DNA from: a virus
DNA length: 64,000 nt
Direction: 5' to 3' (one strand)
IMG/VR virus record: IMGVR_UViG_3300025280_000024
Span: 1-64,000 of that record
Shown here: one piece after another, positions 12,921 through 64,000 of the stretch
Layout: every line of letters begins with the position of its first letter
Position numbering within the stretch: position 1 is the first letter of the stretch
Program-made: the position numbers and the translations under genes
The notes under the pieces: generated by a model
Seen by the model: only the letters and a program-made list of their open reading frames with translations
Databases searched by the model: none
What the model was told of the DNA's origin: nothing

Positions 12921-13655
12921 TTATAGTCTCCAACCCGCAGGCAAGGGGCTGAATATATTTAGTCCTTCCGTGACTTCTATTCCAAACGGAGTTCTGCCGG
13001 CTAACATACTATGAAAATATCCAACATATTCTCCCGTAGAGAGAAATACTCCCCCGCCCGATGATCCAAACCAAGCATCGGAATCTGTGAAAACACGAGT
13101 CCTTTCATCGTTGGCGAAGCCAGACACAATACCTTCCGTAAGAATGGCCGGCGCACCTGTTGGGCAGCCAACGACAAAAAGTTCTTCTCCGATTCTAAAA
13201 TCATGAGAAGGCAGTACTTCTTCTGCTGGTTGCGCGCCTCTAGGCCAATAGCTTAATGGAACCAAAGCAGCGTCCATTCCTGGATTCACTCGCGGCAGGC
13301 CGTTGAACTTTTCTCCCAAAACAATATTAACACAATCTTCTTGTCTAGTATATACATTAATATGACAAGCGGTTTGTTTACTCGTCCGGTTTTCTTGAAT
13401 CATGCGTGCAACTACATGAAAAGCTGTCATCATATAAGGTACGCCATCAACATCTACAAGAACCCCAGATCCAATAATTGGTCCGCCCTCGTTAAGCCTG
13501 ACTGCCAATAAAGAAAGCATAATTTTTTCTCCAACGGCAATATTGTCTGATGTTTCGCGAACTGTTTCTGGTGTTATAATGACTGAAGTGCTGGTGCAAC
13601 AGAGTGTTGCGAGAACAAGAAATAATAAAAGAACTGTATGTTTTAATTTAGGCAT
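12921..13655 (-). CDS. Exported trypsin-like serine protease
   Basis: 244 residues. The N-terminus is a signal peptide (K-L-K-H-T-V-L-L-L-F-L-V-L-A-T-L-C-C); the cysteines suggest a possible lipoprotein, though the lipobox is not ideal. The chymotrypsin/HtrA-like triad is visible: His80 in T-A-F-H-V-V, Asp128 in G-M-D-A-A-L-V, Ser199 in G-S-S-G-G. No PDZ domain follows, so it is shorter than HtrA. It should act outside the cytoplasm. A role in lysis, envelope remodelling or host-surface cleavage is inference. Ribosome binding site GAGGGAGAAAAC. Confidence 0.8.
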   Translation of the reverse strand: MPKLKHTVLLLFLVLATLCCTSTSVIITPETVRETSDNIAVGEKIMLSLLAVRLNEGGPIIGSGVLVDVDGVPYMMTAFHVVARMIQENRTSKQTACHINVYTRQEDCVNIVLGEKFNGLPRVNPGMDAALVPLSYWPRGAQPAEEVLPSHDFRIGEELFVVGCPTGAPAILTEGIVSGFANDERTRVFTDSDAWFGSSGGGVFLSTGEYVGYFHSMLAGRTPFGIEVTEGLNIFSPLPAGWRL

Positions 13656-13694
13656 TTGTTTTCTCCCTCTAAGTGTAACTAGAGAGAAAATTAA

Positions 13695-13883
13695 TCAAGG
13701 GCTCTTTTTTAATTTTTCTCCTTTTTGAGAAATTATTAATTCGCCATTTTTTGAAATAGTGTAGTGACAAGCATTATACAACATTGAAGTCACTAAATCA
13801 TGACGACCTTTGTTGCCGGCTAAATATTCAATGATAGCTTCTTCTAGCTCTTCAGAACTTAAACTGTGAAAGATATTATGCAT
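13695..13883 (-). CDS. Hypothetical protein
   Basis: 62 residues with ribosome binding site AGAGGAGAG and a good promoter just upstream (13909-13937). It begins M-H-N-I-F-H-S-L-S-S-E-E-L and looks like an alpha-helical small protein. It is cotranscribed with the downstream protease gene. No family recognised. Confidence 0.5.
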   Translation of the reverse strand: MHNIFHSLSSEELEEAIIEYLAGNKGRHDLVTSMLYNACHYTISKNGELIISQKGEKLKKSP

Positions 13884-13908
13884 CTAGGCTCTCCTCTTTA
13901 ACTTAACG

Positions 13909-13937
13909 AGTATAACAAATTTTTTTTTATTTGTTAA
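13909..13937 (-). promoter_or_regulatory. Sigma70-type promoter (minus strand)
   Basis: On the minus strand TTAACA (13932-13937), 17-bp A-rich spacer, TATACT (13909-13914). It lies over the stop of the 699-residue gene and drives the 13883 gene and probably the protease. The A/T tract with flanking AACAAAT/ATTTGTT may also act as a weak terminator. Confidence 0.55.
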
Positions 13938-16668: not shown

Positions 16669-16696
16669 AAAAGGGCCGGCAAATGCCGGCCCTTTT
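16669..16696 (-). terminator. Rho-independent terminator after hsp20
   Basis: A perfect 12-bp stem (AAAAGGGCCGGC / GCCGGCCCTTTT) with a 4-base loop. On the minus strand it is followed by T-rich DNA (TTTTGTTTTT). It contains two GCCGGC palindromes. Confidence 0.9.
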
Positions 16697-17141: not shown

Positions 17142-17178
17142 ATATATTCCTCCTATGAATGTAGTTTAGCCGGCGTAT

Positions 17179-17533: not shown

Positions 17534-19102
17534 TTATGTCTCAACGATGGCAAAATTTGATGTAATAATTGCGCCGGCAACAGACGCAGCGTTCTGGAGA
17601 GCACAACGAGTGACCTTTGTTGGATCTATAATACCGTTATCAATCATGTGAGTTGGAGTTCCACTGGTAAAATCCCAACCATATTCATAATTTTCATCAT
17701 AAACAGTTGCAAGAACAAGATCAGCCGATTCTCCAGCATTAATAGCCATTTGTCTTATCGGCTCTTCAACAGATTTTTGAATGATTTTAACTCCCAACTT
17801 TTGATCTTCAGTGTCAACTTCAATTTTAAGATCGTGAGCAGCACGAATTAGAGCAACACCACCACCAGGAACAACACCTTCTTGTTGAGCAGACTTAACT
17901 GCTTCTAAAGCATCATCAATTCTATGTCTCTTTTCAATCATCTCAATCTCGGTTGCAGCGCCAACTCTAATCACTGCAATTCCACTGGCAAGTTTTGTGA
18001 TTCGCTCTTGAATCTTTTCACACTCGTGAATTTCTTCTGTTTGACCGATCTCAACTTTGTATGCTTCAATTCTTTTTTCGATCTCTTCCCAATCACCTTT
18101 GCCGCCGGCAATTGTTGTTCTGTTCTTGAAACTTTCAATTTTGCCGGCGAGACCCAAATGTTCAAGTTTAACTTCGCGAAGTTTTAATCCGGACAATCTT
18201 GAAACAAAGGTTGCTCCAGTTGATAAAGCAAGGTCTTGCAAGATCGCTCGTCGTTCTTCACCATACCTTGGAGCTTTGATTGCTGCGACCTTCATTGTAC
18301 CCCTAACGGCGTTCATGATGAGCGCCGCCAAAGCTTGTCCTTCTATATCCTCTGCGACAATGATGAACGGTTTTGCTTCTCTCGCAGCAACCTCAAGAAT
18401 TGGATAAATATCCTCAACGGTTTCGATCTTATAATCTGTGACAAGAATCAGAGGATCGTCGTATACAACTGCTTGTTTTCTTTCATCAGTAACAAAATGA
18501 CCGGCAACATAACCAGAATCGAAGATGAAACCTTCAATCAACTCCAGACTGGTTTCTAATGATCTTGCCTCTTCGACTGAAATTGCTCCATCTTTGCCGG
18601 CGCTATCGACAGCAGTGGCAATAAGGTTTCCAATGGATTCGTCTCCGTTTGCTGAAATGGTTGCGATATGTGCTACGTCTTGTTCACTGGAAATTGGAAC
18701 AGATAGATCCTCTAACTTCTCGACAATAGCCTTGACTGCCTTGTCGATCCCTCTCTTGAGTTCGATAGGAGATGCGCCGGCCATCAAGTATCGTTGTGCT
18801 TGTTTGAGGATAGCTCTGGCAAGTACAGTTGAAGTTGTCGTGCCATCGCCGGCCTCTATGTTGGTTTGTTCGGCAGCTTGTTTGAGAATTTGTGCTCCAA
18901 CATTTTGGATTGGATCATCAAGTTCAACAAACTTCGCTACAGTTACACCGTCTTTTGTTGTGATTGGGTTTTTTCCTTTTTGATAAAGGATAACGTTGCG
19001 ACCTCTGGGGCCGAGAGTTGATGCGACATTGTCTGTTAGAATATCAACTCCTTCTAGGATCTTTTTGTGTAGTTCTGTTTCACTACAATATTGTCTGGAC
19101 AT
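17534..19102 (-). CDS. groEL: GroEL-type chaperonin
   Basis: 522 residues, full-length Cpn60 without the GGM tail (ends A-I-I-T-S-N-F-A-I-V-E-T). Nucleotide-binding G-D-G-T-T-T near residue 86 and the hydrolytic aspartate in H-R-I-D-D-A-L-E-A are present, as are L-G-P-R-G-R-N-V near the start and G-V-V-P-G-G-G-V. All three domains are recognisable, so it should be an active ATP-driven folding ring. Some large phages of Pseudomonas and Aeromonas also carry GroEL. The start overlaps the end of the 544-residue gene. A GroES-like gene lies at 32.2 kb, not beside it. Confidence 0.97.
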   Translation of the reverse strand: MSRQYCSETELHKKILEGVDILTDNVASTLGPRGRNVILYQKGKNPITTKDGVTVAKFVELDDPIQNVGAQILKQAAEQTNIEAGDGTTTSTVLARAILKQAQRYLMAGASPIELKRGIDKAVKAIVEKLEDLSVPISSEQDVAHIATISANGDESIGNLIATAVDSAGKDGAISVEEARSLETSLELIEGFIFDSGYVAGHFVTDERKQAVVYDDPLILVTDYKIETVEDIYPILEVAAREAKPFIIVAEDIEGQALAALIMNAVRGTMKVAAIKAPRYGEERRAILQDLALSTGATFVSRLSGLKLREVKLEHLGLAGKIESFKNRTTIAGGKGDWEEIEKRIEAYKVEIGQTEEIHECEKIQERITKLASGIAVIRVGAATEIEMIEKRHRIDDALEAVKSAQQEGVVPGGGVALIRAAHDLKIEVDTEDQKLGVKIIQKSVEEPIRQMAINAGESADLVLATVYDENYEYGWDFTSGTPTHMIDNGIIDPTKVTRCALQNAASVAGAIITSNFAIVET

Positions 19103-24932: not shown

Positions 24933-25212
24933 TTTCTTCTGGTTCCTCAAAGTGCTTAGTCAAGTCATCACTTCCTCCAACAAGCATTGGATGTGGAACT
25001 GGTGTATCCTGCCATGGAACCTCTTTGTGAACAATATATTGAACAATTGGCACAGTGGTCATTTCGTTCTGTTTCTTGACTTCATCCAGAAGTTCTGGAT
25101 TGTGAGTAAGATTCCCAATCATAAATAGCTGTTCGTGTTCTCTCAATGTCCCAATTGCCTTGTCACAATGTGAACACCCGTCTGTTGTGTATACGATATA
25201 ATAGTCTTTCAT
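24913..25212 (-). CDS. Glutaredoxin/thioredoxin-like protein
   Basis: 99 residues with the redox motif C-S-H-C (Cys13, Cys16) after the first strand, T-T-V-P-I-V with the family's cis-proline, and L-V-G-G-S-D-D-L near the end. This is the glutaredoxin-like fold. The likely job is re-reducing the phage class II ribonucleotide reductase at 32-35 kb. Ribosome binding site GGAGGCAAG. The acidic tail is unusual. Confidence 0.85.
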   Translation of the reverse strand: MKDYYIVYTTDGCSHCDKAIGTLREHEQLFMIGNLTHNPELLDEVKKQNEMTTVPIVQYIVHKEVPWQDTPVPHPMLVGGSDDLTKHFEEPEENVEEKD

Positions 25213-25685
25213 CTTGCCTCCATTGTTTTGATGATAGTTTGTGGTTCTGATTCAAATATAATAACTGCCGATGGGAATGGTGCGCAATTTTCGCTATTTC
25301 CAAACTTCAGTCTTCCTTTTACGAAGTGTATTTCTTTTGCTCTCATACAATATTCGTGCCAATACTTAGTATCTGTTCTGGCCGGAATAAGGCAGACAAC
25401 TTTTGTATTCGGCTTTAATGATTCTCTATATGCTTTCTCGATCCAAGCAGAGATTTCACGGCCATAAGGAGGGTTCATAAATACTGTCTGCTTCTCCCAA
25501 GACTGAGACAGTCCATTGTCCAATGGTGTGAAATAACATTCAGAAACTTTGGTTGTCTCTTCTGTTGCGCAAGGGTCAAGCGTAAATGGCCCGAACTCTT
25601 CATTTAGTTTTTCATAAAAATCTTGTGGTGTTTCCCAGTCCTTAGATTTAGAACTGAACATCACTTCTTGTGTTTGTTTATCCAT
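25209..25685 (-). CDS. Phage DNA N6-adenine methyltransferase
   Basis: 158 residues. SAM-binding F-T-L-D-P-C-A (about 34-40) and the catalytic N-P-P-Y-G at 71-75 define the phage Dam-like N6-adenine methyltransferase family (PF05869). W-E-T-P-Q-D-F-Y near the start is also typical. It probably methylates adenines in phage DNA to evade restriction. No cognate endonuclease is nearby, so it is an orphan. Confidence 0.92.
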   Translation of the reverse strand: MDKQTQEVMFSSKSKDWETPQDFYEKLNEEFGPFTLDPCATEETTKVSECYFTPLDNGLSQSWEKQTVFMNPPYGREISAWIEKAYRESLKPNTKVVCLIPARTDTKYWHEYCMRAKEIHFVKGRLKFGNSENCAPFPSAVIIFESEPQTIIKTMEAR

Positions 25686-26488: not shown

Positions 26489-29400
26489 TTAGTTTGGCAA
26501 CATCTTAAAGTTTCTTCCTAACTTTCCATATGAACTAAATCCCCAGTTTTCACTGTATTTCAATTTAGCCATATATGGTCGATTAAGCTCGATATGATCT
26601 TTATTCGTAATTCCCCAGCACCATATTGTTGATGTCGCTGAAGTATCGTCTATTGCTTTAACAAGGAAGTATTCTCTTCCATTGCTGGCAACTCTTCTTG
26701 TAACTTCTCTCGGAATAAACCAGCATACCTGCAAATCAACATCATAATGGCTGATCGATGGGATATACAGCTCTTCCAGCTTTTCTCTTGATTTCTCGGA
26801 TAAAACTAGATCCATCGGGAACATTCCAGTCAAATCTGAAAGATATTCGACCTTCTCTTGTAGGAGAAGATCTCCCTCTATGGCATATTCCTCGATATTC
26901 TTATCCAGCGCTTTCTTGGTCTTTGGCCGATCATTTGCCACAGCCATCCAAAAATGCCGCATTCCAGTAAACCTTTCATCCATCAAACAGTTCAAAGTTT
27001 GACTGCGAACGAGAACATCCAATGCCTTTTTGTTCAACTTCGAATAAACGATGTTTTCGTCAAACAACAAGTCTTCAATCGTCTCAAATGGTCGATTGTC
27101 GATGATCTGCTCAATTGCTTTGTCTCCCAATCCCTTGATTGAGGACAGCGGTTGAATGAGAGTCTTGCCGTCTTCGGAAATCTCCCATGTTTCACCGGAT
27201 GTGTTGATATTCAATGTTTCGATGTTGAAACCAAATGACTTTGCAGTGTTGATTGCGCGTTCTTTCTTTTTCTCCGATTCGTGTGAAAGCACGCTCGCCA
27301 TCCACTCTGCCGGATAATAGTTGAGCAACCAAGCACACTGAAAGGAAATTATAGTATAACAGACGGCATGACTCTTGTTGAAGCCATACTTACTGAAATA
27401 AGCCATCTTCTCCCAAAAGTCGCTAGCTTGATCTGTGGTTAGTCCCTTGTCCACGCAGCCTTTTACGAACTTCTCATAAAGTCGCCCATTTCCGGCCTCG
27501 GATCCCTTTTTGATCAAAAGCTTTCGCAGCTTGTTGCCCTCATCGAGCGTAATGTTATCACCAAGTTTGTGAGCGAGTTCTGCAATATCCTCTTGAAAGA
27601 TGATGAACCCATAATTGTCACCAAGTACTTCCTCAATAATCGGATGTTCATATGTGACCATATCTGGGTGTCTTTTGGCCTCCAAATAGCTTCTATCGAC
27701 TTTTGCCCCCAGTGGACCCGGTCGATAAACACTAGTAACCATTGCGAGATCTGACAAGGAGACTGGTACAACGTTCTTGCAGAAGTTCTGCGCTCCCGAC
27801 TCGCTAAACTGAAAAACACCGCCAAATTTCCCTTTCTGGAAGATATTCTCACAAACCTCTTGATCGTCAAAATCAATAACGTCTGGATGGAGGTGTTTAT
27901 CGTAATACTCTCTTATGTCTTTAAATGCCGGCTTTTCTATATTGTGGTGGCGTTTAAGGATGTGAGTGATTGCTCCATTAATCATTTCCAACGTCGTGAG
28001 GCCGAGAATGTCAAACTTAATGAAACCCATTGGTTCCAAGTGTCTTACGTTCTGCCCCTCCGACCATGGCGTCTGCGTGACTCCTCCAGTCTTGATTAGG
28101 GGCATATGCTCATTTAGATTCTCGGCAATCACAACGCCGCCGGCATGTCTAGACGAAGATCTGATTTGACCGTGCAAAACATCAATATGATCGGAAATCT
28201 GGGAATTCCTTTGAAGAAAATTTTTCAGGCTTTCGCTATATTTCTTTAACTCTTCAAACGTGGGAGAATAGACCCCTGCTGTGATGCCGTGGTCCTTCTT
28301 GGCTTGTGGTGTAGCCTCTCTGATCATTTTGCTGGTAACTTTGTTGACTTCAGCAAAAGGAATGTCAAAGAACTTTGATATGTCTTTAATAAGAGACCGG
28401 AGCTTAAGCGTGTTCCAATTAGTGATGGGAACAACGGTGTTCGCTCCCCACTCCTCAATCAGCTTCTCCTTGAACTCTTGTGGCCTCTCTACGTCGTAGT
28501 CGATATCAGGCATACCAATCTTGGCTTGATTAGCCGACATAAACCTCTCAAATAGCAGACCGAACCTAATCGGATCAACCTGAGTAATGCCGAGCACATA
28601 AGAAGTCAAAGCACCAGCGGCGCTGCCCCTGCCGGCGCCAACCAGCCTATCCATCCTGGCTCTGTCTGCAATCGCTTTCATGGTAAGAAAGTATTTCGCA
28701 AATCCCTGATCGTTGATGATTTTCAACTCATGTGCTAGCCTATCAATGTATTCTTTCTTTTTGTGAAGATCACGCCGGCGTAACCCTGTTTGACAGAAAA
28801 ACTTCAATGCTTGCTCTGGAGTTTTACCCTTTGGAACAACAAAATCAGGTAATCTTATTTTGGTTTCTGGCGTATAGTCTTCAATAAGAGTGTGTGCGAT
28901 GTAGTGAGTTCTTTCTATTGATTGACGCACTAAGTCATCATCATAGTTAACTTCCATCTTTTCACAACATGTTTTGTAGGAATCAAAAACCTGATCGCCA
29001 TTCTTGACAAACAGTTCACACTGTGTTTCTTCGATGGACTCTGGCAAAGGATCGATGTCACTGGCTTTCTTCTTTCCTAACCAGGCCAAACGCTTGTATA
29101 GTTCTCTATCGATCCACTTCTCTTTCACTGAATAATGACAGTCAGCCGCAGTGACCAAAGGTACATCAAATTCTTTTGCGATTTTAATGACAAGCTTATT
29201 TAATTCATGCTGTTCTGGTATTATATTCCATTGGATCTCGGCATGCCAGCGATCACCAAAGATTGCCAGCATCCTGCGAGTTGTCTCCCTCATAGCGTCT
29301 AACACAGCCTCTTCGCCCTCTTCGCGGAGTTCCCAGTAGCTGCCGGCATAAATGCCACCTAGGCACGCAGAGGTCGCGACGATGCCTTCATTGTGTTTCT

Positions 29401-29896
29401 CCAGCATAGCATAGTCAATTCGCGGAAAACGATAAAAGTTGGGCGACTGATAAGACTTCGAGACCATTTTGAAGAGATTGTTTAAACCAGTCTGGTTTTG
29501 TGCCAGCAGTACAAGGTGCCTTCTCTTGTTGAGAGGGTTTCTCTTATTGTTTGGCCTCTCACCCTCTTCTACAAGAGTGGTTGCAACCTTCTCTTTCTTC
29601 TTTTGTTTTTTCTCGTTGTATAGCTCTTCCCATTCTTCAATAGAGGGATGAAAATATGCTTCAACACCATAAATTGCTTTAAATTCTTTTCCCTGCTCCT
29701 TCATCTCTTTTTCGTGGAGAAGCATATAAGGAAGTGAACTCATGTTTCCATGATTTGTGATTGCGTGAGCATCTAATCCTAGATCATACGCTGTGTCAAA
29801 ATGTTCTTGTGGATATCCTAAACCATCACCAACTGAATAGACATCGTGTGCGTGTAGATTTACAAATGGAATTGTTGGTCGATATCGTTCAGTCAC
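26489..29896 (-). CDS. dnaE: DNA polymerase III alpha subunit (DnaE)
   Basis: 1135 residues, a bacterial-type family C replicative polymerase. An N-terminal PHP domain is present (H-A-H-D near residue 15, A-I-T-N-H-G-N). The catalytic core shows G-A-G-R-G-S-A-A-G, M-P-D-I-D-Y-D (two catalytic Asp) and I-K-F-D-I-L-G-L (third Asp). F-N-K-S-H-A follows, then a helix-hairpin-helix region and an OB-like C-terminal part. It is close to the length of bacterial DnaE but probably lacks the full tau-binding tail. It would make the phage independent of host Pol III. Overlaps the next upstream gene by eight bases. A family A polymerase is also encoded, at 40.7 kb. Confidence 0.96.
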   Translation of the reverse strand: MTERYRPTIPFVNLHAHDVYSVGDGLGYPQEHFDTAYDLGLDAHAITNHGNMSSLPYMLLHEKEMKEQGKEFKAIYGVEAYFHPSIEEWEELYNEKKQKKKEKVATTLVEEGERPNNKRNPLNKRRHLVLLAQNQTGLNNLFKMVSKSYQSPNFYRFPRIDYAMLEKHNEGIVATSACLGGIYAGSYWELREEGEEAVLDAMRETTRRMLAIFGDRWHAEIQWNIIPEQHELNKLVIKIAKEFDVPLVTAADCHYSVKEKWIDRELYKRLAWLGKKKASDIDPLPESIEETQCELFVKNGDQVFDSYKTCCEKMEVNYDDDLVRQSIERTHYIAHTLIEDYTPETKIRLPDFVVPKGKTPEQALKFFCQTGLRRRDLHKKKEYIDRLAHELKIINDQGFAKYFLTMKAIADRARMDRLVGAGRGSAAGALTSYVLGITQVDPIRFGLLFERFMSANQAKIGMPDIDYDVERPQEFKEKLIEEWGANTVVPITNWNTLKLRSLIKDISKFFDIPFAEVNKVTSKMIREATPQAKKDHGITAGVYSPTFEELKKYSESLKNFLQRNSQISDHIDVLHGQIRSSSRHAGGVVIAENLNEHMPLIKTGGVTQTPWSEGQNVRHLEPMGFIKFDILGLTTLEMINGAITHILKRHHNIEKPAFKDIREYYDKHLHPDVIDFDDQEVCENIFQKGKFGGVFQFSESGAQNFCKNVVPVSLSDLAMVTSVYRPGPLGAKVDRSYLEAKRHPDMVTYEHPIIEEVLGDNYGFIIFQEDIAELAHKLGDNITLDEGNKLRKLLIKKGSEAGNGRLYEKFVKGCVDKGLTTDQASDFWEKMAYFSKYGFNKSHAVCYTIISFQCAWLLNYYPAEWMASVLSHESEKKKERAINTAKSFGFNIETLNINTSGETWEISEDGKTLIQPLSSIKGLGDKAIEQIIDNRPFETIEDLLFDENIVYSKLNKKALDVLVRSQTLNCLMDERFTGMRHFWMAVANDRPKTKKALDKNIEEYAIEGDLLLQEKVEYLSDLTGMFPMDLVLSEKSREKLEELYIPSISHYDVDLQVCWFIPREVTRRVASNGREYFLVKAIDDTSATSTIWCWGITNKDHIELNRPYMAKLKYSENWGFSSYGKLGRNFKMLPN

Positions 29897-39852: not shown

Positions 39853-40685
39853 GCCTTTTTTTCTGTTTCTCGAAGTTGGATCAAAGAGGAATGCGCAACA
39901 CAATACACATAATCTTCATCATATTTGGTCGAATATATACCATATGACGTTTTGATATCGTGATTTTCGATGTTGTCAGTTATCATCTTGAACAATGCCG
40001 TATCTGTCTTGAGCCTTTCATCATTGATACCATAATAATACACCATTTCACGCACGTTGTCAAGTAAAAAAAACATTTTTTGTTCGTTTTTTAGAGAAGA
40101 AATTCCAAAGGTCGATATTCTTGCTATTTCGTGCGGTTCAGAGAAATTTCCTACAATAAAATCAGAATGATTGAAAACATTAATCATATGAATAGTGGAA
40201 ACAATCAGTTCATTCAATTTATCATAGTATCCCATGACGGCGACACCACCTAAAATTTCTTCAAGACAAGGGTTTGAAACCAAATACAATCGCTTAATCA
40301 GACCAGACCTAGCATATTCCTGCAATACATAATAAACCAGTCTTTCTTGCTGCCTCTTTTTCTCTCCCAAAAGCGCGATATTCGGCTGAATATACAGCAC
40401 ATTAGCCTGATGAGACCCGAGTTGCTCAAGCAGTCGTAAAGCCCCTCCACTGACGTTTCCTGACCCTCCCAGGATAAACAGTATATCAGTATCTATCTTA
40501 TTGAAAACGTTTGTATAGTCGCTTAGATGGTCCTCGTACTCTTCCGGTGTTTCAAAACGAGGCAGAAAATAACAATTCTCTCCATAGATGTCGACGTCGA
40601 ATTTTATGATTTTATACTGAGGGTGCTTTGCGAATCTGTCTGCTATGTTGCAGCCGGCAGATCCCAGACCAATTATAGTTTCCAT
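39840..40685 (-). CDS. Divergent tubulin/FtsZ-superfamily GTPase-like protein
   Basis: 281 residues. It opens I-I-G-L-G-S-A-G-C-N-I-A-D-R-F, as FtsZ does (G-x-G-x-x-G-x-N). After a predicted strand comes G-G-S-G-N-V-S-G-G (73-81), in the place of the tubulin signature G-G-G-T-G-[ST]-G. Next are Y-I-Q-P and E-K-K-R-Q-Q-E-R, where FtsZ has its K-P-F-x-x-E-G-x-x-R region, and L-V-S-N-P-C-L-E-E-I near the FtsZ nucleotide loop. It lacks a long FtsZ tail. It may form filaments that position phage DNA, like PhuZ, but both signature loops are altered, so GTP use is uncertain. It overlaps the polymerase gene by 13 bases. Confidence 0.6.
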   Translation of the reverse strand: METIIGLGSAGCNIADRFAKHPQYKIIKFDVDIYGENCYFLPRFETPEEYEDHLSDYTNVFNKIDTDILFILGGSGNVSGGALRLLEQLGSHQANVLYIQPNIALLGEKKRQQERLVYYVLQEYARSGLIKRLYLVSNPCLEEILGGVAVMGYYDKLNELIVSTIHMINVFNHSDFIVGNFSEPHEIARISTFGISSLKNEQKMFFLLDNVREMVYYYGINDERLKTDTALFKMITDNIENHDIKTSYGIYSTKYDEDYVYCVAHSSLIQLRETEKKALQL

Positions 40686-46902: not shown

Positions 46903-49893
46903 TTATGAGGCATTTAAATTATATCTCTCATTAACTAGATCAACAACCGTTCTTCCCAATTGTCTTCTGTCTAATTCTAGTACTACGGTTGTGCCACCGC
47001 CGCCGGCTGCAGCGCCGGCAGTTGGGGCGGTGGCGCCCTTTAAGACTCTTATCAAATTATCAATAGCTTTGTCCCACATTAACACACTAGCAAAACCTAT
47101 TTTAATAGAAGCAACTTCTTTGATTACATCTGTCATTTTCTTTGCTGATTCTACTGCGGCTGGTGTGGCAATCGTTGCGACCTCTGCCATTTTTTCCATT
47201 GTGTGAGCCAGGGCAAGACTTTTAAATACAGGCACATCGTCTATTGAGCCGGCAATTTCTTCTATTCCTTCTCCGACCATCCACAAATTAACGCCCACGT
47301 TTTTATCCATATCTTTCATTTGACTTGTGAATCTTTCAAATGCAGCAATTTTTTCCAAAGACATATCTTTGAAAGCCGCACCAATAGCATAGAGGCCGGC
47401 AGCGAACACAGCCAAACCAACGCTGACAAAAGGCAGCATCATAATAAAACCAATAGCTGCGAAAGCCAAAGCCAAGGCCACCAACGCTATAGCTAATGCA
47501 AACAATTGTGCCGGTTCAACTGATACCAAGCTATCAAGCATCGCTGCAATGCCCTGGGCGGCTATCCAAACTCCAAGACCCATCAGAGCTACGGCGGCAC
47601 CAACCATAAGAGCGGCAAGACCAAATATTAACATTGGTGGGCCGGCCCCACTAGATGCAGCTGCAAGAGCCCACATACCAGCTGCAAGAATAAAAATACC
47701 AATATAGAGGGGCGGCGAATGCATGGATGCCATGATTGCTGCGCCTATGGCCAACAATATCGAAACTATTAATATGGCTTTACCCAGTGCCATCTTTTGG
47801 GCCATGGCATATAAGAGCCAAGCAGCGGCTAGGGTAGCAATTATTGCGGCGAGTTCTGGGCCCAATTTTTTAAACACCATAAAAACAGCAATTAGAACAC
47901 CAGCAACTAATAAAGTTCTAGCCATGACTATCTGCAAGCGCGCGTGAGCGAATGTTAATTTAGTTGTTGACAACACCAGCTGAATATTTTGTAGGTTCCA
48001 GATCGCCAACGCAAAAGCCTGCAGCTTACTTAAAAATAAAGATATTTTTGCTATCTTGGTGAAAGCATAGAAGACACCAATTAAACCAAACATAGTCGGT
48101 ATAAGCATATTGCCTAAAACACCATTAACTTTTAAAAGACCCTTCATTATTAAATTAAACCCATCGACAATCGGGCCAATCACAATTGCCAGTGATTCGA
48201 ACATGATCTTCAAAGATTCTTGTGCTGAAGCATTGAGCAGAGCCCTTTCTTCCATATCTTCTTGACTCATTGCGCTGGCTTCAGCAGCGGCTTGTTGTTG
48301 ATCATAAGCAGACAAACTTTGGCTAAACAATTGATTTGCTGCTGTCATATCTGTAATGCCGGCAGCACTGGCCACAGCTTGACGCTCAAACCTTCCCATA
48401 GCTTCCCAACTTCTACCAGAAAGTTCTATGGATTGGATCAACATTCGAATTCTTTCATCATCAGAAGCATTCAGAAGATCCACAGAGTTTAACAAATCCC
48501 CACCCAATATGGCATTTAAGCGACCAGCAGCTTCAGCAGCACCTTGGAATGTATCAAACTGACCAGTAATACCAAGCAGTTGACTAATTTCTAAACCAGT
48601 TACTTTGGCGGCCGCGGCGAGACCCTTGAAAACATCAATTGCTTGATTGCCAAACTTGGCCAGTTGTGGCATTGCTTCATTAAACCCAGCCACCAACTCT
48701 TCGATCGGTCGACCCAAAGCTGCAGCCGTGGCAACTAGTTCTCTTTGTGCTGTCATGGCGCCGGCGGTGGTCATATTCAATGATTTTGTTGCAAGGTTCA
48801 TGAACGTGGCCGTTGTTTGCGAAGCAACTCCCAAGCGACCCATGGAAGCTGAAAATCCGGCCAGTTCTGTTTGTGCTTCTTCACTCATGCCGGCAAAGTC
48901 GCGCATGCCGACATACAATTCTTGTGTTGCTTCCACAGCTTCAGCAAAAGAAACTCCCAACCCTGCTGTGTTGGTGCGAACATCTAACATGACATCATCC
49001 ATCGTGCCCATGGCGCCGGTTGTTCGATTAAAAGAAGCAAAAGCAGAATCTGCAGCGAGAACCATGGCTATTGTTGATTCTTTAACTTTTAATAATGTCC
49101 CCTGAAACACATTGGCAGGATGAAACGATTTAGCAAATTGAGAAGCAATATCTCCCAAATAATTTGTAAAGCTGCCGGCTTCTTTAATGTTTTGCTGCAT
49201 CTGACCGATCCAGCCCTCACTGAATTCACTGGCAAGACCGGTTAATTTCGTTATTTTGGATGCTGTCTGTTCTTGAACCCTGTTAAACGCACGCTGGCGC
49301 TTAACTTTTTTTGCGTGAAGTTTTTCTGCGTCTCTTGCATACCCGTCGGCGCCCATGGCGACTATCTGGGCCTGGTTGTCAACGTTTTTAAGTGCATCAA
49401 TTTCGGCCTCTAATTCAGCGCTGGGACCGGCGCCGTCAGGTGCTGATAATTTTTTTTGTAATTTTTCTAATTTCTCCAGCGCTGCTTCTTTTTCTTTAGC
49501 TATAGCTAATGCTTCATCGGCAATTTTTCTCGCGGCAGAAGCTAGTGCTTCCTGTTCAACGACTTCATTAGCAATCGCCCTTGCTCTATCATCTAGGTTG
49601 GCAAGTAGTTTTTCGCCGGCAAGAGCGCGTCGATGTTCTTCATCAGCAATCGCTTTGGTTTTAATTGCTGTCGCCGCTACAAGATCCCCTATATCCTTTT
49701 GAAGACGTACTTCTTTTTCTTTTAGATCGTTTAAACGTTCCAGGGCCTTTTCTTGGGTGCGCGCAGCCGCAGCAGCGCGGGCGTCGGCGGCGGCGGCCTT
49801 CTCGGCGGGGGTCAGGGTCTTCGGCGCGCTTGCAAACGCAGGTATACCCAGAAGTGTCGCGAGAATTATAATTATAAGGACGGCTGCTAGCAT
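46903..49893 (-). CDS. Tape measure protein
   Basis: 996 residues. It begins with a hydrophobic signal-like segment (L-I-I-I-I-L-A-T-L-L-G-I-P), then an Ala/Lys/Glu coiled coil (25-180) and long helical regions. A block of several hydrophobic segments lies at about 600-850 (L-I-A-V-F-M-V-F, L-L-A-I-G-A-A-I-M-A). The mix of coiled coil and membrane-like segments, its length and its place between tail and baseplate genes mark it as the tail length ruler that also helps DNA cross the host membrane. Confidence 0.85.
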   Translation of the reverse strand: MLAAVLIIIILATLLGIPAFASAPKTLTPAEKAAAADARAAAAARTQEKALERLNDLKEKEVRLQKDIGDLVAATAIKTKAIADEEHRRALAGEKLLANLDDRARAIANEVVEQEALASAARKIADEALAIAKEKEAALEKLEKLQKKLSAPDGAGPSAELEAEIDALKNVDNQAQIVAMGADGYARDAEKLHAKKVKRQRAFNRVQEQTASKITKLTGLASEFSEGWIGQMQQNIKEAGSFTNYLGDIASQFAKSFHPANVFQGTLLKVKESTIAMVLAADSAFASFNRTTGAMGTMDDVMLDVRTNTAGLGVSFAEAVEATQELYVGMRDFAGMSEEAQTELAGFSASMGRLGVASQTTATFMNLATKSLNMTTAGAMTAQRELVATAAALGRPIEELVAGFNEAMPQLAKFGNQAIDVFKGLAAAAKVTGLEISQLLGITGQFDTFQGAAEAAGRLNAILGGDLLNSVDLLNASDDERIRMLIQSIELSGRSWEAMGRFERQAVASAAGITDMTAANQLFSQSLSAYDQQQAAAEASAMSQEDMEERALLNASAQESLKIMFESLAIVIGPIVDGFNLIMKGLLKVNGVLGNMLIPTMFGLIGVFYAFTKIAKISLFLSKLQAFALAIWNLQNIQLVLSTTKLTFAHARLQIVMARTLLVAGVLIAVFMVFKKLGPELAAIIATLAAAWLLYAMAQKMALGKAILIVSILLAIGAAIMASMHSPPLYIGIFILAAGMWALAAASSGAGPPMLIFGLAALMVGAAVALMGLGVWIAAQGIAAMLDSLVSVEPAQLFALAIALVALALAFAAIGFIMMLPFVSVGLAVFAAGLYAIGAAFKDMSLEKIAAFERFTSQMKDMDKNVGVNLWMVGEGIEEIAGSIDDVPVFKSLALAHTMEKMAEVATIATPAAVESAKKMTDVIKEVASIKIGFASVLMWDKAIDNLIRVLKGATAPTAGAAAGGGGTTVVLELDRRQLGRTVVDLVNERYNLNAS

Positions 49894-52054: not shown

Positions 52055-54997
52055 TCAATCTTCAAACGATGCACCGGAATTTGTAATCGTGAAATCCAAT
52101 GCGATAAACTCAATTGCTCTAGCTGGTTTCAAGAAAATTTTAGCATACAAGATATTCCGATCAATCAGGTCTGGAGTTGTCGTTGTTTCATCCAACACAA
52201 CCTTGAAGGCAGTTAAACCAAACCTAATTTTGATATCTCTCAAAAATGGTTTAACCATACCCAAGAAACGATTCCAGGTAGCCTGAACGTTTTGGTCAAA
52301 AAGGACCCGGGTAGCCATTCTGGAAATTTCCTTCTTAACATGAATCATCAATCGACGAACGTTGATTCTGTCAAGAGCAGACGGCGTTACCTGCAGTGTC
52401 TTCTGTCCAAAGATTACAATACCTTCTGCCGGAAATGTAGCAATAGGATTAATATTGACTGCATATAGCGTATCTCTATTATCTGCAGTCAATCTGTCAG
52501 CCACATTAACAACCGGAAGTCCCGCAGAACCTTCAGTTAAGCCACCCCGATTAAAACCAGCCGGAGCAAACCACAATTCCGCTTTCTTCTCAGAACTCGC
52601 CATGGTTCCCAAGGCAACAACCGAGGGCGGCACCCAAACATAGTTGCCGGCCTGTGGATCACGTACCTGAACCCAAGGATAATAGCAACAACCATAACTT
52701 GTGTTGAGCGCTCTATTTTCGAGATTAGTAACTACATCGAGTACGGTTCCTTTTCTGTTTTCTGCAGTATTACTATTCTCTGTAAATGGTTTGTAATCAC
52801 CTTTTAAATCAATAATAGCCATGGCATCGCCGCGATCTTCACAAACGTTTATCATGTGTGATGTAAGACCTTCGTGGGTAATACCAGGTGCTAGCATTAA
52901 ATTGTATTCTGCCACTTCCGGATCGGACACTGTATCGATAGCTCTTTTAATAGAGTTGTATGCATAGTTATTGTGTTCAACCGGTGTCAAACCACTCGAT
53001 AAATCCAAAAACCTATTACTAAATGGCTCTTTCTCTCTAATGTCCAACCCATCAAATCCACCGTGTAAACTCATCGTAAATCTATCGACGCCGGTTTTTA
53101 ACAATACGTCGAGTGAAGCAGATGTTGCACCAGTGGGAATACCATCTCCTGTCGCAGTGCCTCTAAAAGAGGTTCCTAGGGCGCGAGAACCAGAAATGTA
53201 GTGCAAAACTCCACCGCCGGCGCTTGTAGGTAAACTAGCACTAACATTATCCAATGTAAACACATAAGAATCTTCAATTCCAGTTCCGCTTCTATCGCCA
53301 CTACTAGGGGCGGCACCGCCTAAAATGCGAGTCATGTCGTAGTAACTTGGATCAAAGGCCGAAGAGCCCGATCTGAAAGTTGCAATACCCCAATAACAAT
53401 TCTTCAAACTTGGCGGGGTGCCCTCTGAAGAATCAACTCTTAACTGCGGAGCGGGAAACACATATTTATCAATAGTTCCAGATCCGGCACAAACTTCATA
53501 ATTCGCGTGTAAGATTGAAGCCGATAAGGGAGCCGACGAGGCCGAAAGAACGAAGGTTGCATCGCTCGTTGGAGACACGTTTGTTTGCGTACTATAAACA
53601 CTAACTTGCGCTTGACCAAATGTACCCGCAGCTGAACCGGTAGATACAACTGCAAATCTCTTAAATCTTGGCGCGCCAAAGAATCCAAACGGTACCCAGG
53701 ATGAATTTCCTGCGCCATTATCTAGATCAACATTCATATCCATGCGAATGTATTTTGAAACACTAGGAAATTTACCATACCATCGGTGTCGACGATCGGT
53801 ATCACTCCAAACAGAATATGTATCACCAATTCTTTTCGAAATATAATCTGTAGAATTTGGATTCAAATTAACGTTTGAATATCTCTCAACTATTGCTGGA
53901 GCATTGTCACTATCATTAGCCATACGAATAACAACTGTAAACGTGCCATAGGGATTGTCTACAGAAGTTGATTTCTTGATATCCATAATTGAAATCTTAA
54001 GATTTTGCTGTTCCCATTCGCCATTCTCAAGAGCAATGAATCTAAAAAGTTTAGACATCGCCTCGGGATTATAGCTGGAAGTATCCTCTGTAGTTAAGTG
54101 TTGATGAATTACCCATCCAGTTCGAGAGGGATTCGCGCTGAATCTTTTGTTCGCAGCATTGACCGTTGATAATTGCAACGCTGCTATCCAAGCGTGCTGC
54201 GAAGAGGCGGCTGTACTAGTGACATACCTTTTTACGGCGCCCTCATAACTTTCGCCAAGCCAATATGTTTCTGCTGTTCCCGCAGTAATATTGCTATTAG
54301 TCTTAGTCGGATTTGTATTCAAGACTTTTCTGATATAGAAAGGAGAAGTATCAGTAAAGTTAATACGATGATTTTTTGCACCAGAAGAATCTGAAACAAC
54401 CAGGATAAACTCTTTATCTGCAACATTTTTAACATATGTTCCAGCTGCGGGAGTAGTGGCAGAACCACTTGCTCTCGTACCAGAAAGAGCAAAAGCGGTG
54501 CCCTGTACAGCATAAAGAATAGCCGCTAGAGTACCAGTTTGAGCGGACGTGCCGCTGTTGGCCATAAACAGGCCGTAAGCGCCACCGTTTGCAGCAACAG
54601 TCGCGGCTGCAGCAGTAGCTACACCGGTGTTCCAGCCGGCTTGTCCATAAAGGGTTGTAGATGTAGTCTTATTTGTATGTTCGTATCCCATAAGACGAAC
54701 AATTGTTGCGGCATTATTGTTTTTCAACCACGCTTGTGCTGCATATGCAGCATATGTTGGTGCAAGATAGTTACCATTTCTCCAAACATCAGTAGAATCT
54801 CCACCAGGAACGGGATTCCCAAAAACTTCAACAAATTCTGAAAACGAATTAACCTTCACGGCTTGCATCGCTGGGCCGCGTTGTGTTCTACCTATAATAA
54901 CCGGCCCAATATCTCCAGGAACTTTTGGTAATTGTGAATTGTCTATCTCATCAATAAAAACTCCAGGTGAGACAAATTTAAACTTTCTTTCTGACAT
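52055..54997 (-). CDS. Contractile tail sheath protein (gp18-like)
   Basis: 980 residues, much longer than T4 gp18 (about 660), with extra beta-rich insertions around 130-700. The N-terminal F-V-S-P-G-V-F-I-D-E-I-D-N-S and C-terminal V-R-R-L-M-I-H-V-K-K-E-I, F-G-L-T-A-F-K-V-V-L-D-E, A-R-A-I-E-F-I-A-L-D-F are classic sheath ends. It contracts during infection to drive the tube through the envelope. Expressed from the candidate promoter word at 55036. Confidence 0.95.
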   Translation of the reverse strand: MSERKFKFVSPGVFIDEIDNSQLPKVPGDIGPVIIGRTQRGPAMQAVKVNSFSEFVEVFGNPVPGGDSTDVWRNGNYLAPTYAAYAAQAWLKNNNAATIVRLMGYEHTNKTTSTTLYGQAGWNTGVATAAAATVAANGGAYGLFMANSGTSAQTGTLAAILYAVQGTAFALSGTRASGSATTPAAGTYVKNVADKEFILVVSDSSGAKNHRINFTDTSPFYIRKVLNTNPTKTNSNITAGTAETYWLGESYEGAVKRYVTSTAASSQHAWIAALQLSTVNAANKRFSANPSRTGWVIHQHLTTEDTSSYNPEAMSKLFRFIALENGEWEQQNLKISIMDIKKSTSVDNPYGTFTVVIRMANDSDNAPAIVERYSNVNLNPNSTDYISKRIGDTYSVWSDTDRRHRWYGKFPSVSKYIRMDMNVDLDNGAGNSSWVPFGFFGAPRFKRFAVVSTGSAAGTFGQAQVSVYSTQTNVSPTSDATFVLSASSAPLSASILHANYEVCAGSGTIDKYVFPAPQLRVDSSEGTPPSLKNCYWGIATFRSGSSAFDPSYYDMTRILGGAAPSSGDRSGTGIEDSYVFTLDNVSASLPTSAGGGVLHYISGSRALGTSFRGTATGDGIPTGATSASLDVLLKTGVDRFTMSLHGGFDGLDIREKEPFSNRFLDLSSGLTPVEHNNYAYNSIKRAIDTVSDPEVAEYNLMLAPGITHEGLTSHMINVCEDRGDAMAIIDLKGDYKPFTENSNTAENRKGTVLDVVTNLENRALNTSYGCCYYPWVQVRDPQAGNYVWVPPSVVALGTMASSEKKAELWFAPAGFNRGGLTEGSAGLPVVNVADRLTADNRDTLYAVNINPIATFPAEGIVIFGQKTLQVTPSALDRINVRRLMIHVKKEISRMATRVLFDQNVQATWNRFLGMVKPFLRDIKIRFGLTAFKVVLDETTTTPDLIDRNILYAKIFLKPARAIEFIALDFTITNSGASFED

Positions 54998-57710: not shown

Positions 57711-57755
57711 TAAACTATATCTCCTCGGGTATAATTAGTTGCCGGCGTTACAAAA

Positions 57756-59246: not shown

Positions 59247-61064
59247 TTAGCTAGCTCCACTCTCTCCGAGCAAGCCGCGAACAACAACCAGACCATACAT
59301 ATCAGGTCTGACCATCTTCTTAGCATAACGAGTCATCACGCCCTTGCGAGGCACGAAGTCTTCGATACCGAAGATCGTCGGAGTAACCTGCAGCGGTACA
59401 TAAGGAGCATAAACATAGCCGCTCTCAAGGAACGAACCACCCTTACGACCAACCAAGACGAGGTTACGAGGGAAATAGGGGTCAACATAGACGTCCCACT
59501 TCTTACTCATAGCGCCAACCTTGACAGTTCCGACAGTGCCACGATCGTCATCAGCAGTCACACTAGCTCGAAAGCCAGAGGTAAACTCAAGGACGTTCGC
59601 AACTTCAGGAGAAGTAACAATAAAGTTAGCTCCACCACGAAGTGTCTTACGATGAATCTGTGCAGACACATCATTAATGGTCTCAGCAAGAGTCTCATAC
59701 CACTCACTAACTGTACCCGTGAAATCGGGAGCAGCTGCTGTAGCACCAAGCTCGGTGCCGGTTGCTCGATTAACGAACAGACCAGGCGAGCGCGACCAGT
59801 AATACGTTCCAGCAGTAGCCAGTCGTACAAGATCATTAAGAATCTCCCGGTCAATCTCAAGAGCAATCTGCTCAGAGAGAATACTCGTAAGTTCAACCTC
59901 TGCATCCAAGTTGTGATAAGCGTTGAGATCCTGGCCAAGTTCCGGAGTCCACTTCGCTTTCAGCTTCTTAGTTACAGCAGTGACACTCACCGAATCGACC
60001 TTGATGTCGATCTCGGGAATTTCTGTGTTATTCTCTAGACCCCACGTAGTGGTTCCAGCAATAGCACCAATAGCATTGGCGTCACCAGCAGCTGCAGTAC
60101 CATCAAAAGCATCCTTTTCCGGATAATGAACTGTAATTGCCACTGCTGTATCCGCAGCTGCAGCTGTTGAATCACCGTGCATAGTAAACTCAACGGTAGC
60201 TACATCAACACGTCTAGTCAATCGACGAACTGGGCGAATATCTTCATTTGCATCCAGACCAAATGCAACGCCAGATCCGCTAGCCTGTGGGCGAATATCA
60301 AGGAGAATCATGTTTTCCATATTGATATTCGCCTGTTGAGCGGCAGTAAGAGTAACATGTACCTGTTGAACTTTATCAGTACTCTCGGCGTTCAAAAGAT
60401 CCGGATCAAAACGCAAGTCTTTCTTCTGAGCTTCCGACAGCGCGCTGATTGCAGTAAAAGCTGCCAAGTTAGCGGTTGCACCCGGGAAGCCGTTTGCAGC
60501 AGTAACTGCGGCGGCAGGGGCAATTGCGCTAGCTGCAAGAGGAAGCGTTCCAGATGGCGAAGAATAACCTTGGTTAAGGTTGTAAAACCCCTTATCAGCA
60601 TTATCTCCAGTAGAGGTAACACCCGCATCACGAGCTTCTTGACTAAGGTCCACACCACCAGTGATCTCCTGGCCAACCCTTCCACCACCGTATAATGAAT
60701 CATTTGCACGATAATCATATCTCGCAGCCGTATACTGAAAATCAAGGAAGAAGATCAGTCCAGAGGGCAAACTCATGGGCTGAACACTTACAAGATCATT
60801 TGCAATAAGTCCACCGAACACTCGACGGACGATCGGAAACGCGACGGCCGCGAAACCCTCGACGTCACCACCAGCCATAGACGAAGCTTCCTTCAGAAGC
60901 TGCTTGGCCTGGTTTTCAAGAAGGCGTGCCATAGTAGACTTCTTTCGATCTCCTCCGAGACCTTCAAGAAGGCCAGTTGCCTCCCACTTATTAAGAAGGG
61001 CATCGCCCTCCTTTTGAAGATCTCGATCAACGATACCTTCAGTTAATTTTTCTAAAATACTCAT
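59247..61064 (-). CDS. Major capsid protein (gp23-like)
   Basis: 605 residues, HK97-fold capsid of the T4 gp23 family. The N-terminal ~60 residues (L-L-E-N-Q-A-K-Q-L-L-K-E-A-S) are the propeptide-like part removed in T4. G-L-I-A-N-D-L-V-S-V-Q-P-M and G-L-I-F-F-L-D-F are the conserved N-arm; C-terminal L-V-V-V-R-G-L-L-G-E matches the family end. Codons and base use here differ from most of the window: no GCCGGC palindrome is seen, as if tuned for high expression. Preceded by the scaffold gene. Confidence 0.93.
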   Translation of the reverse strand: MSILEKLTEGIVDRDLQKEGDALLNKWEATGLLEGLGGDRKKSTMARLLENQAKQLLKEASSMAGGDVEGFAAVAFPIVRRVFGGLIANDLVSVQPMSLPSGLIFFLDFQYTAARYDYRANDSLYGGGRVGQEITGGVDLSQEARDAGVTSTGDNADKGFYNLNQGYSSPSGTLPLAASAIAPAAAVTAANGFPGATANLAAFTAISALSEAQKKDLRFDPDLLNAESTDKVQQVHVTLTAAQQANINMENMILLDIRPQASGSGVAFGLDANEDIRPVRRLTRRVDVATVEFTMHGDSTAAAADTAVAITVHYPEKDAFDGTAAAGDANAIGAIAGTTTWGLENNTEIPEIDIKVDSVSVTAVTKKLKAKWTPELGQDLNAYHNLDAEVELTSILSEQIALEIDREILNDLVRLATAGTYYWSRSPGLFVNRATGTELGATAAAPDFTGTVSEWYETLAETINDVSAQIHRKTLRGGANFIVTSPEVANVLEFTSGFRASVTADDDRGTVGTVKVGAMSKKWDVYVDPYFPRNLVLVGRKGGSFLESGYVYAPYVPLQVTPTIFGIEDFVPRKGVMTRYAKKMVRPDMYGLVVVRGLLGESGAS

Positions 61065-62121: not shown

Positions 62122-62129
62122 ATAAATAG
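62122..62129 (-). promoter_or_regulatory. Candidate phage promoter word CTATTTAT (copy 1)
   Basis: ATCTATTTATTAATAATG on the minus strand, 26 bases before the scaffold ATG. Confidence 0.45.
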
Positions 62130-62139
62130 ATGTTCACAA

Positions 62140-62147
62140 ATAAATAG
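62140..62147 (-). promoter_or_regulatory. Candidate phage promoter word CTATTTAT (copy 2)
   Basis: TACTATTTATTTGTGAAC on the minus strand, 44 bases before the scaffold ATG. A pair of copies fits the very high expression expected for scaffold and capsid. Confidence 0.5.
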
Positions 62148-62223
62148 TATTTAGTTCTTTAAAATGACTATATGTGTTGATTTTCTGTTATCTCCGACTT
62201 TCATATAGTTACTCTACTTTATC

Positions 62224-63432
62224 CTATAGCTCAATAAAATCTGGTGAAGGACTGAAAAATATCAAATCTACATCAATTGAATGTCCTATAACTCTGACAA
62301 CTTCTCCAGAACCCGATGGTATTACAGTTGTATATTGACCGGCAACAAAGCTGGCATATACTTGTCCTCCAATATCAAAGGCGCCTGGGCCAGCAGATCC
62401 AGTAATAAGAGAGCTTGTTAGTTGACACAACCCACGAGTAAGAACTCCTTTGGAATGTGGTGGAGCAGTGTCACCGACAATTGCAATAAAAGCTGCATCG
62501 CCGGAACCAGTTGCAGCTGCATTAACTAAGCTCCATTGTTTTGTTGAATCTAAATAAACCAAATGGCCGGCGGCTACTCCAGCTGCGGAACCAGTGCCTG
62601 CAAATAGTATATCACCAGATTGATCGTATGCGCTAGTGAACGATGAAGAGTGAGTCTTAAGACCAACCCCGAAACCAGGCGAGAATATAGCTGCATTACC
62701 TATGGTCACATTGCCGCCACTCATTTCAACACTGCCAGTAAATTGATAATTGGCACTTTCTCTAAAGATTATGCTTCCAGTTGCTCCAGTGCCGTCTCCG
62801 ACACCGCCGATTAACACAATGTCTCCACCATCATCATTTGTTACACTGGCTTCCGACCCTTGAATCTTAAATTCGCCAGTGGTCATGCCAAATAAAGCGG
62901 CAGGCTGAATTTTAGTCTCAGTGGGTCCAGCCTTAAGCTTGAGAAGATTCAGGCCTCCAGCAGTATTCCTCCCGCCTATTGCGATCTCGACTCGGTGATC
63001 AGCAGCAGGAAGTATTGAATTGTTTCCGAAAATATATATTTCTTCTGGATTGGCCGAAGAGGTCATTCTAAAATGAGCCCCTTCAAAGTCGGCATCGTAT
63101 TCCAAACTGGTCTTGACTCCAGCTTTATCTATAGACAAAGTTGAAGCACTTATTTCAACACTGCCAGTAAATTGGTGAGTGTCGCCGGTGTCATTACCAA
63201 ATTTTGTATCACCTAAATAAGTGGTTGTAGTGATCGTTTCGAACGCATATGATGTAATTGTTCCAGAAACATCTAAACCTCCAGAAAGTACAAGTTTATC
63301 GTTGGTATAATCATATGTAAAGTTGCTAGATCCACTAAGAGTAGATCCTGAATTGAATTGAACGTGTGTGTCGGCGCCACCCACAGTTGCAGCCGCGGCA
63401 CCCGATATATATGCCCATCCTAAATTTGGCAT
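62224..63432 (-). CDS. Fibre-like structural protein
   Basis: 402 residues, beta-rich with many Gly/Thr/Ser repeats. It contains S-G-S-S-N-F-T-Y-D-Y, K-L-V-L-S-G-G-L-D-V-S-G-T-I and two T-G-S-V-E-[IM]-S units (residues ~89-95 and ~238-244), typical of trimeric phage fibres. The end (G-Q-V-Y-A-S-F-V-A-G-Q-Y) resembles the DUF2190-like tip found on virion proteins. Probable tail fibre or head fibre. Confidence 0.6.
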   Translation of the reverse strand: MPNLGWAYISGAAAATVGGADTHVQFNSGSTLSGSSNFTYDYTNDKLVLSGGLDVSGTITSYAFETITTTTYLGDTKFGNDTGDTHQFTGSVEISASTLSIDKAGVKTSLEYDADFEGAHFRMTSSANPEEIYIFGNNSILPAADHRVEIAIGGRNTAGGLNLLKLKAGPTETKIQPAALFGMTTGEFKIQGSEASVTNDDGGDIVLIGGVGDGTGATGSIIFRESANYQFTGSVEMSGGNVTIGNAAIFSPGFGVGLKTHSSSFTSAYDQSGDILFAGTGSAAGVAAGHLVYLDSTKQWSLVNAAATGSGDAAFIAIVGDTAPPHSKGVLTRGLCQLTSSLITGSAGPGAFDIGGQVYASFVAGQYTTVIPSGSGEVVRVIGHSIDVDLIFFSPSPDFIEL

Positions 63433-63585
63433 TAGATATTATTCTCCTATAATAACATAATTAGTTCGTAATCAGTTATAAGCTATATCGATTGTCTAAA
63501 ATTAGTTCCAAGTTGAAGATTGATGATTGGCAGAGTTCACAGAGGATAGTGAATATCTGATTTGAATTATTGTTCATTCGTCATG

Positions 63586-64000
63586 TTAAAAAGTGGAGCA
63601 TGCGGCAAAGATATTAACTTCACCAGAATCTTCGTGAACAAAAGCAACCCTATCTATTCCCACTATATGATAAACTCGATATTCTCTGGCGCTTGGAACT
63701 TGACTCGCCACAGCGACTTCGGAATCAGCCACTGTTATAGAAGCAGCTGTTGGATTGGTGTTGTCACCAACTGGAAAAGGAGCTGACTCTGGTATCTCAA
63801 ACCACCTTAAAAAAGCATGACAATATCCAAATATAGTCAACGCAGCTGGCGTGGTATCATGCGCATCTTCAACAAGGACATGCAAATATCTTTGATTTTC
63901 TGTAGCATAACCCTCAGTTGATGCAGTAATACCTTGTAAGTTGTTTGTATTCGCCAAAGGTGTAACCGTCCCACCTTGACTGCCGGCTAAATTCTTGGGG
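63586..64000 (-). CDS. Structural-type hypothetical protein (5' end outside window)
   Basis: The frame is open to the window edge, so the N-terminus is missing; 138 residues are visible. Beta-rich, with R-Y-L-H-V-L-V-E-D and A-L-T-I-F-G-Y-C-H. No family recognised. It lies upstream of the fibre-like gene in the same direction, so a virion role is likely. Confidence 0.55.
   Translation of the reverse strand, partial: PKNLAGSQGGTVTPLANTNNLQGITASTEGYATENQRYLHVLVEDAHDTTPAALTIFGYCHAFLRWFEIPESAPFPVGDNTNPTAASITVADSEVAVASQVPSAREYRVYHIVGIDRVAFVHEDSGEVNIFAACSTF

Follow-up and report, generated by a model that had tools for sequence, protein, structure and literature searches.

The window analyzed here, the whole 64,000-nucleotide stretch, corresponds to bases 1 to 64000 of virus record IMGVR_UViG_3300025280_000024 (102,045 bp). 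The record was extended with near-identical overlapping contigs to a species sequence of 170,092 bp, which is not a closed genome. Contigs 99.8 to 100% identical to the phage in the window were found in several other metagenomes, so that it represents a real population and no assembly error. The phage is large and probably marine, and its source samples, judged by accession numbers, are presumably deep Pacific seawater. The ORF set was mechanical, consisting of the longest nonoverlapping frames without curated annotation.

The gene content places the phage among the T4-like phages with contractile-tail genes and includes a major capsid protein, a tail sheath, a T4 baseplate protein, a T4 portal, a prohead protease, and a terminase. 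The capsid gene lies at positions 59247 to 61064 on the minus strand (PHROG major head protein). The nearest named capsids belong to an uncultured phage, Flavobacterium phage immuto, Microcystis phage Mel-JY01, and Rhodothermus phage RM378, all less than 60% identical. The tail sheath (positions 52055 to 54997, minus strand) has 980 amino acids, and a match to a 496-position tail sheath profile spans residues 7 to 978, which suggests a large insertion.

Four tRNAs of the phage lie at positions 1636 to 1709, 2504 to 2576, 5596 to 5680, and 7675 to 7747. A B12-type ribonucleotide reductase (positions 32449 to 35499, minus strand) carries an intein with a LAGLIDADG domain at about residues 381 to 723. 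The phage carries a gene for a DnaE-like polymerase III alpha (positions 26489 to 29896) together with a short fragment of a family-A DNA polymerase (positions 40673 to 41710), both on the minus strand. The phage GroEL (positions 17534 to 19102, minus strand) is full-length and shares at most about 47% identity with its nearest relatives in the phage collection; the species also encodes an Hsp20-family protein and a Clp protease family protein. At the left end (positions 1 to 655, plus strand), similar stretches such as CTCAACGGGAAA and AAGATGGACCTGCT recur, suggesting a short repeat protein.

Number and distribution of GCCGGC sites

The palindrome GCCGGC occurs 72 times in the window, 116 times in the 102-kb record, and 185 times in the 170,092-bp species sequence (1.09 per kb). 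The original prediction had estimated about 70 copies in the window where four or five were expected, and both figures hold, as base composition predicts 4.7. Markov models of order 1 and order 2 predict 5.0 and 8.3 copies, respectively, and no other 6-mer in the window comes close to GCCGGC in strength. A maximal-order Markov model expects 53.6 copies, a value that is circular because its 5-mers come from GCCGGC itself. A codon null was also applied, in which all proteins were held fixed and synonymous codons were redrawn from codons outside GCCGGC sites. Across the genes of the species, this null predicts 17.9 copies, compared to 180 observed, and GCCGGC is again the strongest word. An expectation from codon or dinucleotide use close to the observed count, which would have spoken against the original prediction, was thus not obtained.

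When sorted by reading frame, 140, 10, and 30 copies were observed, compared to 13.5, 0.85, and 3.5 expected under the codon null, the first being the Ala-Gly frame. Each reading frame is therefore enriched 8- to 12-fold, whereas an excess driven by proteins or codon pairs would sit in one. Copies also occur between genes. Free-standing intergenic sites, read directly and outside the ORF set, are located at 17169 to 17174 and at 57741 to 57746. Since all frames are enriched and copies lie between genes, the signal belongs to the DNA and not to the proteins. The noncoding sites named at the outset are all real, but the pair at 16675 and 16685 has to be set aside. Both of its members are stem arms of a terminator-like hairpin (positions 16669 to 16696, minus strand) composed of AAAAGGGCCGGCATTTGCCGGCCCTTTT followed by GTTTTTAACA with a 12-pair stem, and they provide no independent evidence because hairpin formation explains both.

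The excess is largely specific to this word. Words of the same composition are about five times rarer in the species (38 copies of GGCGCC and 35 of CGGCCG, versus 185 of GCCGGC). Other all-GC palindromes are raised 2.4 to 3 times above the codon null, so that a 2.4- to 3-fold part of the excess reflects general G+C clustering and the rest is specific. Observed-to-expected (O/E) ratios under the codon null equal 9.7 for GCCGGC, 1.3 for GCCGGT/ACCGGC, 1.8 for ACCGGT, and 3 for GGCGCC. The core of the cyanobacterial palindrome HIP1, CGATCG, is near expectation in the species (30 versus 23).

In the 102-kb record, 89 of the 111 coding sites read Ala-Gly, in agreement with the original observation that most sites in genes do so, and GCCGGC spells 89 of the 198 Ala-Gly dipeptides. 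The palindrome could in principle be a chance product of codon usage and the Ala-Gly-rich proteins of this phage family, in which relatives often show a mild surplus of GCCGGC and GGCGCC alike; the raised all-GC palindromes point the same way. As a main cause, however, this explanation is refuted by the codon null, and it also conflicts with the enrichment of all frames alike, the free-standing intergenic copies, and the rarity of GGCGCC and CGGCCG, which together make it highly unlikely.

The 72 sites span positions 3428 to 63987, with no strand assigned. They start at 3428, 10582, 11470, 12996, 13147, 13815, 13999, 14230, 16675, 16685, 17169, 17573, 18104, 18143, 18596, 18776, 18848, 20215, 20275, 20840, 21790, 22312, 23815, 23977, 24241, 24349, 24484, 25895, 26408, 27927, 28139, 28631, 28774, 29342, 29897, 30892, 31286, 31700, 32491, 33625, 34675, 36237, 37624, 38851, 38859, 39519, 40653, 42947, 44682, 45167, 46031, 46160, 47002, 47014, 47248, 47395, 47641, 48358, 48760, 48889, 49174, 49615, 50663, 52646, 53216, 54635, 55544, 56974, 57741, 61854, 62566, and 63982. 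Exactly three (3428, 10582, and 11470) fall in the plus-strand first 12.9 kb, as had been counted by eye. The accompanying remark that the sites lie mainly in the minus-strand part does not reflect a strand feature. The codon null expects 0.5 copies in the first 12.9 kb and assigns 17.5 of 18.5 expected copies to the minus-strand genes of the species. With the gene-by-gene expectation, all regions have O/E ratios of 5 to 15, so the bias is a capacity effect, reflecting which genes can hold GCCGGC.

At the level of single genes, the most copies in the window (10) are found in an ORF of 996 amino acids (positions 46903 to 49893, minus strand). The capsid gene has none, as originally noted; this is within chance and not significant, with 0.3 copies expected by the codon null and about 3 at genome-wide enrichment. 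The spacing of the sites is that of random points, and their position within genes is uniform.

Methyltransferases, relatives, and host search

GCCGGC had been proposed as a possible methylation target, which is plausible, and the contigs of the species were analyzed for a matching enzyme. Direct family search of the 170 kb, a genome that is not closed, revealed no C5 or N4 methyltransferase (PF00145, PF01555) and no Vsr. Of the 45 Pfam families at the far right of the species sequence, 25 were listed, and absences there hold for the families searched directly. The phage contigs yielded a single DNA methyltransferase, a Dam-type adenine enzyme (positions 25209 to 25685, minus strand; PF05869, E value 2.2e-28), which is no candidate for GCCGGC because the palindrome contains no adenine. 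A signature of 5-methylcytosine decay was also looked for in the one-off neighbors of the word, which are not cleanly informative. The 2-fold increase of GTCGGC has counterparts of similar size in ACCGGT and other G+C words, and no such signature is claimed.

These data bear on the possibility that a modification system encoded by the phage itself targets GCCGGC and that the excess follows from it. The cyanophages A1 and CL131, which bear HIP1 and were searched whole, both encode C5 methyltransferases, and in the phage studied here the unclosed genome and the partial family listing leave room for such a gene. However, the families expected of it are missing from the contigs, and a relative that does encode a C5 cytosine methyltransferase (G011, also L101; PF00145, E value 3e-49, G011:17312-18364) has no GCCGGC in 39.8 kb. 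We therefore consider phage-encoded modification unlikely.

Related phages show how the sites turn over. Among relatives with sufficient sequence, G013 is the nearest; its capsid is 79% identical to that of the phage, and it carries 22 GCCGGC in 20 kb. In 17.1 kb of codon-aligned DNA, a small sample, the phage and G013 have 18 and 21 sites, of which 1 is shared. A second relative, L007, yields the same picture in smaller numbers, with 6 sites in each phage and none shared. The density is kept while the positions turn over, and sites are both made and lost. This argues against a function of single sites and favors a process that creates sites continually across the genome. A comparison of SNPs at GCCGGC sites within the species had no power, as its contigs are 99.8 to 100% identical.

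Packaging, partition, or regulatory marks along the genome, as suggested at first for packaging and partition, would agree with sites spread over most of the genome. Such marks should be clustered, evenly spaced, or positionally conserved, yet the 185 sites are randomly spaced, mostly intragenic, uniform within genes, and unconserved in position, so that none of the three roles is supported. In addition, T4-like terminases package by a headful mechanism, for which frequent sites are not needed. The packaging and partition readings were consequently rejected, together with strand-related ones, on the basis of the random spacing, the single shared site among 18 and 21, and the capacity effect; of all explanations weighed, this one is the least credible.

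Turnover also weighs on a selective explanation, in which GCCGGC is recognized by a protein of the phage or the host and the phage gains from having about one site per kb. Possible roles would include a chi-like protective site, a DNA-protection site, or a self mark read by a nuclease. The strong specificity of the word, a weak preference for TGCCGGCA in its flanks, and the occurrence of the excess in only this species and its closest relatives are consistent with selection. Ala-Gly dipeptides are over-represented 1.3 times and Gly-Ala dipeptides are not, so that protein sequences themselves may be shifted by the motif; this is weak evidence, however, since Ser-Gly and Ala-Ala are over-represented too. 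Against selection stand the unconserved positions and random spacing, no protein recognizing GCCGGC was identified, and we know of no palindromic chi sites. Selection in the phage thus seems possible but doubtful.

Beyond the nearest kin, the excess fades. The codon-null O/E ratio is 9.7 in the species of the window, 5.5 in L007, 4.1 in G013, and 2.7 in G002, where it equals that of GGCGCC, and it is 0 in both L028 and L071. Across the wider family, many contigs exceed composition, most of them being about equally rich in GGCGCC, and others lack GCCGGC altogether. Only the species of the window, L007, and G013 show a clear specific excess; L100 is one of the weaker cases. Family-wide inheritance of the excess was rejected, because GCCGGC-rich and GCCGGC-poor contigs are scattered on the capsid tree and most of the rich relatives are equally rich in GGCGCC. 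Insensitive scans of viral contigs for clustered sites gave no unrelated phage with an excess of comparable strength among the matches listed. The best match, G067 (IMGVR_UViG_3300037400_003374; L285 to L288), has 39 GCCGGC in 73.7 kb, 25 of them outside ORFs, and one CGGCCG. Its pattern looks like dispersed noncoding repeats, a different phenomenon.

A capsid and ribonucleotide reductase search of bacterial genome contigs returned one match, in a deltaproteobacterial MAG. The matching contig looks phage derived and has no GCCGGC near the match, and 46 genomes of that unrelated phylum showed no comparable excess, with GCCGGC/CGGCCG ratios of at most 2.6.

Separately, four hexamers, GAGCTC, CTCGAG, GTGCAC, and CACGTG, are absent from the 170 kb of the species, with about 14 to 23 copies expected of each. 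Across the family, with the relatives L007 to L102 included, GAGCTC is nearly absent (6 copies versus 224 expected), and CTCGAG and CACGTG are also strongly avoided. This pattern looks like restriction-site avoidance of long standing within a common host group. The idea that avoidance of the four hexamers marks lineages rich in GCCGGC was rejected for lack of correlation (rho, 0.09). Extreme restriction-site avoidance is also seen in 50 kb of Microcystis phage Mel-JY01 (L104, positions 1 to 50000), which contains no GATC (159 expected) and no TTATAA, GAATTC, GATATC, or TTCGAA.

GCCGGC and the HIP palindromes

Highly iterated palindromes (HIPs) occur in cyanobacteria at 1,000 to 2,000 copies per Mb, and their saturation has been modeled near one per 1,000 nucleotides (Elhai 2015, PMC4390886). 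It was proposed there that mutations giving rise to new sites are retained through mismatch repair guided by G-methyl-C, until a density of about one per kb is reached (PMC4390886). Three cyanobacteria carry replacement HIPs, including rCCGGy, and each has a methyltransferase covering its palindrome; GCCGGC is itself named as a HIP form under the rCCGGy methyltransferase of Oscillatoria PCC 10802 (PMC4390886).

Cyanophages served as a control for whether phage DNA can bear such a signal. The HIP1 octamer, GCGATCGC, occurs 209 times in 112.8 kb of CL131 (L294) and 39 times in 68.3 kb of A1 (L292), while a reversed control word is absent from both. PaV-LD (L299) and 2AV2 (L300) contain 27 and 20 copies, each in 50 kb, with fewer than 0.4 expected in each case and all frames represented; two Microcystis phages have 1 and 0 copies. 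Four of the six cyanophages tested thus bear HIP1, at about 0.4 to 1.9 per kb. Phages can carry a HIP, though not always, and the host-signature reading moves from analogy to precedent.

The excess of GCCGGC is a property of the DNA, independent of reading frame and about tenfold, with its density held and its positions free. We propose, with a probability of roughly 60%, that GCCGGC represents a HIP and that the host supporting replication of this T4-like phage imposes it. The host would mark GCCGGC; the simplest agent would be an orphan cytosine-5 methyltransferase, which is also the proposal for cyanobacterial HIPs. New mutations that give rise to a marked site would then be retained by the mismatch repair of the host or by some similar conversion process, and phage DNA copied in such a host would gather the host motif, with no single site functional by itself. 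A host source is simpler because PF00145, PF01555, and Vsr are all missing from the phage contigs. Counting against it, A1 and CL131 encode C5 methyltransferases of their own and the phage genome is not closed; moreover, distant relatives have no specific excess or no GCCGGC, and part of the signal is G+C clustering. Of the readings first offered, the HIP1 comparison and the host genome signature are favored by the all-frame DNA excess, the density of about one per kb, the turnover, and the HIP1 precedent in cyanophages.

A more far-reaching version, which we advance only tentatively, is that GCCGGC is a signal in active use by a noncyanobacterial lineage and that the phage carries it so that its DNA is replicated and repaired like that of the host. 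In such a lineage, the palindrome might serve, for example, as the reference mark of a MutH-less mismatch repair or as a self-recognition mark. If this were true, HIPs would be a general, convergent form of DNA marking that can be read from phage genomes, and only with a noncyanobacterial host that uses the mark would the finding exceed the known HIP kind.

HIPs have so far been an unexplained cyanobacterial peculiarity, and another palindrome at HIP density in a phage suggests that viral DNA is subject to such a process as well, perhaps in a different host lineage. With close relatives that keep the density at other positions and distant ones without GCCGGC, the gain and loss of sites become testable. 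The palindrome further provides a barcode toward finding the host of the phage, and it looks worthwhile to survey cyanophages systematically for HIP1 and to compare the counts with the HIP1 and methyltransferase content of their hosts.

Among known systems, DNA uptake sequences and chi-like words are likewise short, enriched genome-wide, and present in coding and noncoding DNA. These words are nonpalindromic and act in an orientation-dependent or strand-wise manner, in contrast to GCCGGC, a perfect palindrome. The resemblance to HIP1 of cyanobacteria and cyanophages that had been noted from the start is closer. Like HIP1, GCCGGC is a perfect palindrome found far above expectation and above all words of its size, in all coding frames and in noncoding DNA, and its 185 copies in 170,092 bp lie within the HIP density range; the all-frame excess, the turnover, and the cyanophage control support the likeness. 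The HIP1 octamer itself is not the enriched word. The word of the phage has six letters, all G+C, and the phage contigs yielded no C5 methyltransferase, unlike A1 and CL131. The rCCGGy HIP of Oscillatoria PCC 10802, which has a DmtD-type methyltransferase, includes GCCGGC and has a similar density range, but in that cellular genome the enrichment covers three of the four rCCGGy words (PMC4390886), whereas GCCGGC alone is enriched in the phage. Finally, Calothrix PCC 7103 uses a single all-G+C palindrome, GGCGCC, in place of HIP1 (PMC4390886), as the phage does with GCCGGC; the word there is a different one in a cyanobacterial genome, and in the phage it is only 3-fold above the codon null.
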